Source of the DNA: an uncultured Pelagibacteraceae bacterium
Lineage (GTDB): Bacteria; Pseudomonadota; Alphaproteobacteria; Pelagibacterales; Pelagibacteraceae
Direction of reading: 5' to 3'
Length of the DNA: 35,199 nucleotides
NCBI GenBank assembly: GCA_902516345.1
Contig: CABXYJ010000008.1
Location: forward strand, 1-35,199
Under the pieces are notes generated by a model. It was not told the DNA's origin. It was given only the letters and a program-made list of their open reading frames with translations, and made no database searches. The number at the start of each line of letters is the position of its first letter. Within the stretch, counting starts at the first letter, position 1. Below, piece by piece: positions 18,074 to 20,842 of this stretch. The translations under genes and the position numbers were made by a program.

Positions 18074-18100
18074 TTTCCGATAACCATTAATTATCGGAAA
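18074..18100. repeat. perfect 10-bp inverted repeat upstream of recombinase
   Basis: TTTCCGATAA (18074-18083), a 7-base spacer CCATTAA, then TTATCGGAAA (18091-18100). The arms are perfectly complementary. Arm length and spacing fit a tyrosine-recombinase core site or a dimer operator. The repeat begins 5 bases before the recombinase start codon and touches the -10 box of its promoter. Confidence 0.75.
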
Positions 18101-18147: not shown

Positions 18148-18324
18148 ATGAGTTCAGTTGATGGAGAAATACCTGCAGTTTGGTTTTTAATTACCTCATT
18201 TGGCTTTATAATTTTAAGTTATATTCAATATAAAAATCATGGAAAAAGTATTGAAACAATTTTTTTATCAACTCTAGCAACTGTTTTTTTTATTAGTTAT
18301 TTTATACTTGTATTTAAAGCTTAA
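18148..18324 (+). CDS. small membrane protein, unknown
   Basis: A 58-residue protein starting MSSVDGEIPAVWFLI, with two predicted membrane helices (about residues 9-27 and 37-56). The frame is open back to a GTG at 18112, but that lies in the promoter region of the divergent recombinase, so I chose the ATG at 18148. No recognised family. It is divergent from the recombinase gene. Coding status is likely but not certain for so short a gene. Confidence 0.5.
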   Translation: MSSVDGEIPAVWFLITSFGFIILSYIQYKNHGKSIETIFLSTLATVFFISYFILVFKA

Positions 18325-18418
18325 TTTATCCCCATAATTCACAGCAATTTGCATTTTTTTTAAAATCAATTAAAAAGTGATATTAATATAAATATACATT
18401 TGTTAATATATAAATGAA

Positions 18419-18600
18419 TTAAGAGGCAACTCTTAACTGGCCGATTGGAGAAAAACCGAGAGGTACAATTCCAAGGGGCAGAAAGCTCTGCAAAGCATCG
18501 CTGAACATGCAGAGCGGGAGGCATGGCGGTAGCGCATCAACGACGTGCCAAAACAACTGTTCTTTGCGCCTTAAAAAGTGCAAGGAAACAGGGGTTTTTT
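18419..18600 (+). ncRNA. candidate structured RNA (sRNA or cis-regulatory leader)
   Basis: Bases 18421-18550 have about 54% GC by my count, against roughly 30% around them, and fold into consecutive hairpins. They are TTAAGAG-GCAA-CTCTTAA (18419-18436, GNRA loop); TTGGAG/TTCCAA (18445-18450/18469-18474) enclosing ACC-GAGA-GGT (18455-18464, GNRA loop); GCTCTGCA/TGCAGAGC (18485-18492/18508-18515); GGCATG/CGTGCC (18520-18525/18544-18549, one G-U); and a terminator hairpin at 18557-18591. It ends 5 bases before the alkyltransferase start. I do not recognise a known RNA class; tmRNA, SRP RNA, RNase P RNA and common riboswitch signatures were not found. Confidence 0.6.
18557..18600 (+). terminator. 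intrinsic terminator at the end of the RNA candidate
   Basis: CTGTTCTTTGC (18557-18567) pairs with GCAAGG-A-AACAG (18580-18591, one bulged A, one G-U), giving an 11-bp helix followed by GGG and TTTTTT (18595-18600). It could end an independent small RNA, or act as an attenuator controlling the alkyltransferase gene. Confidence 0.6.
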
Positions 18601-18605
18601 CAACA

Positions 18606-18890
18606 ATGATACTAAAAGGTTCTAAATTTCAACTAAAAGTTTGGAAATATCTTAAAACTATTCAAAAAGGCAAAGTAAAAACTTACAAACAGGTGGCTAT
18701 TGGCATAAAAAGCCCTAAATCAGCTCGTGCCGTAGCTAATGCTTGTGCTAAAAACCCATATGCCCCAAAAATACCTTGTCACAGAGTAATTAGGTCTGAT
18801 GGGACCCTTGGAGGCTACTCTGGGAGAGGTGGAATTAAGCAAAAGCTCAAATTACTTAAATCTGAAAACGTAGCATTTAGCCCTATTTGA
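18606..18890 (+). CDS. ogt: methylated-DNA--cysteine alkyltransferase, single domain
   Basis: A 94-residue protein equal to the C-terminal DNA-binding/active-site domain of O6-alkylguanine-DNA alkyltransferases. It has FQLKVWKYLKTIQKGKVKTY, the helix-turn-helix RAVANACAKNP, the active-site PCHRVIRSDGTLGGYSGR and a closing KLKLLKSE. The acceptor cysteine is present (PCHRV), so it is not an inactive alkyltransferase-like protein with Trp there. The usual N-terminal domain is absent. The frame is open upstream to 18423, but that part lies in the RNA candidate, so I start at the ATG at 18606 with a weak AGGGG 11 bases before it. Confidence 0.85.
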   Translation: MILKGSKFQLKVWKYLKTIQKGKVKTYKQVAIGIKSPKSARAVANACAKNPYAPKIPCHRVIRSDGTLGGYSGRGGIKQKLKLLKSENVAFSPI

Positions 18891-20200: not shown

Positions 20201-20842
20201 TTATATTTTTTTCCAACAAAAAAAAGTAATTAAAAAATTAATTTTAATTAAAAAAAAATAATTCCATGAAACTATATTTTTGAAATTCGGATAATCAACT
20301 ACTTTATAAATAACAAGAGGTAATAGAATTAAACCTAAAGAGGATAAAATTATATTAAAATAAAATTTAAAATTAACAATCGAAATATATGAAAACAAGT
20401 TGAATTTAGTCCTAAAAGAGATTGAAAGTAATAGTTCAGATATAACAGTAAAAAAAATATATATAAAAATGCCTATACGTCTAAAAAACCTATAATAATC
20501 CCCTTCTCCAAGAAAAATAATATATAAAGAAAAAAAAAGTATAGAAAACATTCCTAAAATATATGATAGTTTATACAATAATGAATTTTTATTTTCCGAT
20601 ATTAAAAGATAATTATACCTCCAATATAAAAAGATAAAAAAAATAGAAATAAACATAAATGTTTTAAAAAAAAAATTTACAGGTGGATATCTTCCTACTT
20701 GAGATATAGATGTACAACCATCAATATTTGGTATACAAAAATTTACATAATTAAGTTTTATAGAAAAATAATAAGATAATAGAACAGTAAAAATTGGTAA
20801 TAAAAAACATAAAATAGATATAAACCTTATTTTCTTTATCAT
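20201..20842 (-). CDS. Frag1/DRAM/Sfk1-like membrane protein
   Basis: A 213-residue protein with about six predicted membrane helices. After the first helix it carries an external loop CIPNIDGCTSISQVGRYPP, which resembles the conserved loop of the Frag1/DRAM/Sfk1 family. The assignment is by pattern and moderate. Function is unknown in bacteria. Its start codon shares a base with the AEC transporter stop, so the two are probably co-translated. Confidence 0.6.
   Translation of the reverse strand: MIKKIRFISILCFLLPIFTVLLSYYFSIKLNYVNFCIPNIDGCTSISQVGRYPPVNFFFKTFMFISIFFIFLYWRYNYLLISENKNSLLYKLSYILGMFSILFFSLYIIFLGEGDYYRFFRRIGIFIYIFFTVISELLLSISFRTKFNLFSYISIVNFKFYFNIILSSLGLILLPLVIYKVVDYPNFKNIVSWNYFFLIKINFLITFFCWKKI

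Follow-up and report, generated by a model that had tools for sequence, protein, structure and literature searches.

The locus examined here raises the question of what is encoded by a GC-rich stretch that ends immediately before an ogt-type gene in the window, i.e., the whole 35,199-nucleotide stretch of DNA that was analysed, from an uncultured Pelagibacteraceae bacterium (contig CABXYJ010000008.1). A preliminary description had placed a GC island of about 54% at positions 18419 to 18600; scanned in 10-base steps, no other 182 bases of the window are indeed as rich in GC, but the GC content of this stretch is 48.9% rather than 54%, compared to 27.2% for the whole window. The same description recognised no known RNA class and proposed an Rfam search, which we ran with cmscan. 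Positions 18412 to 18551 matched RF02035 (IMES-2) with 149.5 bits against a gathering cut-off of 54.7, that is, 2.7 times the curated cut-off. The match covers model positions 1 to 141 of 141, with four positions marked as lacking a standard pair, and IMES-2 is the sole Rfam family reported at the locus up to an E value of 5. The GC-rich stretch is a structured RNA of the already known class IMES-2 and not a new class, an outcome that the description itself had named as grounds for setting its proposal aside; its structure had been correctly sensed and its novelty wrongly assumed. The four hairpins do begin at 18419, as first described, but the RNA core starts slightly earlier, near 18412.

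18412 to 18551, forward strand: IMES-2 RNA core with four hairpins (cmscan, RF02035 at full length)

IMES-2 was reportedly catalogued in 2009 from marine sequence without a function, and is said in that original description to be highly abundant in marine RNA; we know of no established function for the class. In those parts of the literature on IMES RNAs that our search reached, the word IMES-2 was met only in a squid genome paper. A marine bacterial source is indirectly indicated here as well: the best 80 ogt loci all come from Pelagibacteraceae/Pelagibacterales records (SAR11, which we take to be marine), and the RNA lies just upstream of the gene in 52 of these 80.

The predicted fold of positions 18410 to 18610 reached -70.7 kcal/mol compared to -47.6 (SD 4.0) in 200 dinucleotide shuffles, none of which folded as well (z = -5.8). 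Four consecutive hairpins with GCAA and GAGA loops had been read from the sequence, and the Rfam structure line bears them out at 18419 to 18549, as follows.

18419 to 18436, forward strand: hairpin P1 with GCAA tetraloop
18437 to 18481, forward strand: hairpin P2/P2b with internal loop and GAGA tetraloop
18485 to 18515, forward strand: hairpin P3
18520 to 18549, forward strand: hairpin P4

Covariation, which had been set beforehand as a check, was counted in 67 aligned representatives of the 131 copies fetched from the 140 genomes of the order with IMES-2, taking the Rfam helices plus one P3-P4 loop-loop helix. In P1, all cells (100%) were paired, with double changes in 4 of 7 pairs; double changes were also seen in 9 of 15 pairs of P2/P2b, in all 8 pairs of P3, and in 5 of 9 pairs of P4, in which one position lacks a standard pair in 67 of 67 sequences. 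Over all helices, 93.7% of 2947 cells were paired and 29 of 44 pairs showed double changes, a number that 0 of 500 shuffles equalled, with the reservation that kinship among the rows inflates the apparent strength. Sliding the helix partners lowered pairing to 32 to 42%.

The loop-loop helix joins the loops of P3 and P4, as given below.

18498 to 18502, forward strand: UCGCU, the P3-loop side of the kissing helix (of its five pairs, the window copy makes four)
18531 to 18535, forward strand: AGCGC, the P4-loop side of the kissing helix (from covariation with a single-helix control)

These loops are complementary, most commonly as GCGCU/AGCGC, and variants were found as GCACU/AGUGC (L044 in genus g6, L032 and L033 in g2), GUACU/AGUAC (L040 in g5, L046 in g6), and UCGCU/AGCGA (L047 in g1). 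Judged from their sequences, the variants in the four genera look independent, and since some of them are not self-complementary, pairing between identical loops of two molecules is disfavoured. Tested alone, the kissing helix gave 8 double-change cells against 0.7 in shuffles (0 of 500 as high), but in further pair types it did no better than shuffles (273 of 500). Sliding it by one position gave 10 double-change cells against 8, but only 41.8% of cells were then paired, against 82.1%. The fifth pair fails in 10 of the 67 representatives, including the window copy, and an optional sixth in 62. Overall, the aligned sequences indicate that the P3-P4 kissing helix covaries, with some controls weaker. 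The printed cmscan structure line does not carry this pair; such lines hold nested pairs only, and the kiss may already be known.

Beyond the Rfam model, the RNA is followed by a terminator and then by the repair gene.

18552 to 18600, forward strand: intrinsic terminator, hairpin plus six T, outside the Rfam model (shuffle-tested fold)
18606 to 18890, forward strand: ogt-type gene with an O6-methylguanine-DNA methyltransferase DNA-binding domain (PF01035), a neighbour and not part of the RNA

The terminator-type hairpin with GGGG-TTTTTT up to 18600 was confirmed (z = -4.3 for the terminator alone), as was its spacing: the T-run stops five bases short of the ogt start codon (ATG at 18606). Among the 131 loci, a script found a hairpin followed by at least four T behind the core in 104 and not in 27, of which 19 lie outside the window's genus; the 12 failures that were inspected, ten of them from g5, have a hairpin with a broken T-run.

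As the preliminary description had noted, the window has an open frame that begins at 18423 and continues in phase into ogt, so that the region might instead encode a longer Ogt N-terminus, a coding alternative that it asked to be excluded. This reading was rejected: an in-frame stop is present in 97 of 98 relatives, the window alone being open, and the base pairs covary. We regard it as already refuted, with a negligible residual probability.

A cis-acting leader of ogt, either riboswitch or attenuator, would have its terminator open on a signal and let transcription enter the repair gene. All 99 loci fetched from the window's genus have the gene behind the RNA (a script found it in 98, and in L084 it was read by eye), and in 73 of the 81 scorable loci among those 98 the T-run ends 0 to 9 nt before the ogt start, leaving no room for a separate promoter. 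The terminator directly before the gene (18552 to 18600, ATG at 18606) is what an attenuator would be expected to have, and the frequency of the RNA among the best 80 ogt loci also speaks for a leader. However, no ogt occurs in the fetched stretch in any of the 32 loci from three other genera (two of these stretches reach only 390 and 492 nt downstream), and in 31 of the 32 a convergent frame of at least 60 codons ends within 150 nt of the RNA core. The constant association with ogt expected of a riboswitch is thus lacking, with 0 of 32 loci in other genera. Moreover, no such leader was seen at the ogt loci without IMES-2 that were read (12 of 28 in one set), and at the same-genus loci without the RNA that were read, ogt abuts or overlaps the upstream gene. 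A general role as ogt leader was rejected based on the 32 loci outside the genus, and we consider a cis-acting leader quite unlikely as the explanation of this RNA. Given the distance of 0 to 9 nt between the T-run and the ogt start, ogt may nonetheless depend on read-through in the window's genus.

The neighbourhoods outside the genus differ among themselves. In the one locus read gene by gene from each of g5 and g6, mnmA lies upstream (in g6 identified by eye) and a convergent membrane-protein gene follows, while the one g2 locus so read has an SNase-like gene upstream and a convergent SRAP gene next. In G001, G007, G094, and G265, ogt is located elsewhere. The changing gene contexts suggest that promoter, RNA, and terminator come and go as a unit. 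A tree of the 80 short Ogt proteins, poorly resolved with 1 starred branch among 74 inner ones, needs 5 changes (gains or losses) to explain where IMES-2 accompanies ogt, and the RNA labels were clustered on it (0 of 500 shuffles as low).

Some further genes of these neighbourhoods were recorded. With the SRAP (SOS-response-associated) gene facing IMES-2 in g2 (L032, 3194 to 3826, reverse strand) and ogt in g1, the RNA has a DNA-damage gene next to it in two genera, which may be coincidence. A membrane protein without Pfam match, encoded 1.6 kb from IMES-2 in the window (20201 to 20842, reverse strand), is related to the g5 protein facing IMES-2 (L034, 3176 to 3877, reverse strand; 28% identity, E = 1e-17), possibly a trace of an older shared neighbourhood.

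Upstream of the RNA, three elements were delineated in the window.

18326 to 18343, forward strand: tandem DnaA-box-like 9-mers TTATCCCCA / TAATTCACA (exact match to the consensus pattern)
18367 to 18382, forward strand: conserved promoter box CAATTAAAAAGTGATA, ending in a -35-like GTGATA (pattern match)
18400 to 18407, forward strand: putative -10 region TTGTTAAT, read by eye from the upstreams

In relatives, the -10 equivalents read TATGAT, TGATAT, or TTGTTA. The 131 loci provide 123 distinct upstreams, and an AGTGAT-type box was present 41 to 44 nt before P1 in all 123 (variants being allowed after inspection). The tandem TTATCCACA/NNATTCACA repeat, located farther upstream, scored 11 to 16 of 16 in these upstreams, compared to mostly 8 to 11 in 2460 shuffles, 33 of which reached 12 or more. 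These figures are flattering, since both motifs were first read by eye from the same upstreams; what counts is that, as far as the sequences tell, the promoter block is retained where the neighbouring genes differ.

The DnaA box is TTATNCACA, and DnaA might bind the tandem repeat. Genome-wide, the tandem pattern was found at 9 places in 12 genomes, against 4 for the reversed control; three of the 9 are at IMES-2 and two lie before hemE, a gene that marks the replication origin in Caulobacter. Among 10 genomes scored, 5, each belonging to g1, have a like repeat at a constant position before hemE, with a chance expectation of 0.6 to 8% each. It was not seen upstream of hemE in G028 (the sixth g1 genome), g2, or g6, where the IMES-2 promoters do have it. 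Control of IMES-2 by DnaA is a lead that we consider possible, although short of probable. Genome-wide, the CAAC-AAGTGATA pattern is no commoner than expected by chance: it occurs at 21 places in 12 genomes, and its reversed control at 23. Five of the 21 are IMES-2 promoters, and no comparable RNA was found at six of the other places, which were read (L155, L156, L158, L161, L162, and L163). A loose box count gave 19 of 28 in ogt loci without IMES-2 but is uninformative, because by eye this pattern also hits sequence adjoining the dif-like site described below. A location of IMES-2 at the replication origin is not supported if hemE marks the origin; in G015 the two lie 645 kb apart on a 1379-kb contig taken as a circle.

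A dif-like palindrome with the core GATAACCATTAATTATC is present at 18079 to 18095 of the window, where it adjoins a tyrosine recombinase gene (PF00589; 17163 to 18068, reverse strand). Allowing one mismatch, the core was found in 16 of 16 genomes, against 1 for the reversed control. A single exact copy is present in 14 of the 16, five of which have one further one-mismatch place; in G007 and G164 every copy found carries a mismatch. In 98 of 99 same-genus loci, the site is located no more than 900 nt upstream of IMES-2. Relative to hemE, it is on about the opposite side of the genome in G015, G003, and G013, but just 55 to 59 kb away in G001 and G007. Between this site and IMES-2, the window has a small membrane-type ORF without Pfam match (18148 to 18324, forward strand); by eye, several same-genus loci have similar ORFs ahead of ogt, whether or not the RNA is there. 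According to a 2009 survey, Pelagibacter ubique has no dif/Xer system (PMC2731167); the dif-like site and its recombinase may therefore be an overlooked single-recombinase system.

With stricter filters, IMES-2 was found in 140 of 297 genomes of the order, in 4 of 11 genera and always as a single copy, and in a sample of the class 2 of 289 genomes matched, both inside the order. No RF02035 match was obtained in the other 157 of the 297. A model built here and run on 20 genomes without Rfam match gave ten weak places in nine genomes, the best with 22.1 bits (E = 3.8e-4). Eight were read and rejected as divergent IMES-2, being coding by eye (rpoA/rplQ-like and gcvT-like); the two remaining reached 17.6 and 11.5 bits. 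Since 157 of 297 genomes have no match and the eight weak places look coding, the RNA is dispensable or replaceable. IMES-1 (RF02034) shares the naming series of IMES-2, taken from marine sequences; a search for it as a possible replacement gave no match in 30 genomes, with the controls silent too.

No 6S RNA (RF00013) was found in any of the 297 genomes of the order under the stricter filters, which very divergent forms could escape. IMES-2 might therefore be a 6S-like RNA that binds RNA polymerase and stands in for the missing 6S RNA, for which its similar length of about 190 nt would also be suitable. However, the 6S fold is a single long hairpin with interruptions and a bubble that is open at its centre, whereas IMES-2 has four hairpins with a kissing pair, and genomes without IMES-2 also have no detectable 6S RNA, so that there is no complementary pattern. 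We consider a 6S-like role very unlikely.

Similarly, Hfq (PF17209) was detected in 0 of 20 genomes, including G000 (assembly 77% complete), and in 5 of 14 controls, by a profile search that could miss very divergent forms. This result bears on the possibility that IMES-2 regulates by base pairing, with the P3 and P4 loops (exposed when the kiss is open) or the P3-P4 joiner pairing with mRNAs. The RNA does resemble a free small RNA that ends in a terminator and has conserved unpaired stretches, but the loops would be occupied by the covarying kissing helix, Hfq is not detected, and conservation of the whole fold seems to exceed what antisense action would need. A base-pairing regulator is rather unlikely in our view. 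Because the whole fold is conserved and no Hfq was detected, an RNA-protein complex is likelier than an antisense RNA.

The explanation that we favour, and consider probable, is that positions 18412 to 18600 are a stand-alone gene for a trans-acting IMES-2 RNA of about 190 nt, which probably acts with a protein and is possibly under DnaA. It builds on class membership, the covarying fold, the kissing helix, the terminator, the changing gene context, and the conserved promoter block, all established at the level of sequence. The preliminary description had offered a free small RNA or a riboswitch of ogt; promoter block, terminator, and differing neighbourhoods favour the free RNA, and the riboswitch lacks support as the main role. 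In the favoured mechanism, the gene would be transcribed from its own promoter block at about 18326 to 18411 and the transcript released at its own terminator, giving the RNA of about 190 nt. The four hairpins would take a compact shape as the P3 and P4 loops kiss via 4 to 6 base pairs, and the RNA would then act in trans as a component of a ribonucleoprotein complex. DnaA may read the promoter and so tie the level of IMES-2 to the replication cycle, and in this genus ogt is perhaps expressed by read-through, as a local side effect. A bolder version, which we consider improbable, would make IMES-2 a global regulator in SAR11 that is coupled to replication. It would be an RNA-protein complex with kissing loops, controlled by DnaA, in bacteria with no detectable Hfq or 6S RNA, and in this genus its gene would lie beside a candidate site for resolving chromosome dimers at the replication terminus.

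SAR11 bacteria rank with the most numerous in the ocean, and their regulators are few; for these reasons a conserved structured RNA in them deserves work. IMES-2 becomes testable once it is placed in a defined set of SAR11 genomes, where its gene has one copy, is apparently independent, and combines a core of kissing loops with a promoter block that is conserved. The gains of this analysis are the host range, the separation of the RNA from ogt, and three parts of the gene itself, namely promoter block, kissing helix, and terminator.

Compared with known systems, the tandem repeat before IMES-2 resembles TTATNCACA, the box of DnaA. With 6S RNA, IMES-2 shares a length of about 190 nt and the form of a free RNA, but its fold differs and RF00013 has no match at the locus. 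With IMES-2 as held in Rfam (RF02035), the RNA described here shares the four hairpins in the same order, the conserved loops, and a full-length match; to that model the present analysis adds the terminator hairpin beyond its end, the P3-P4 kissing helix, and the promoter block, together with the gene contexts and the host group.
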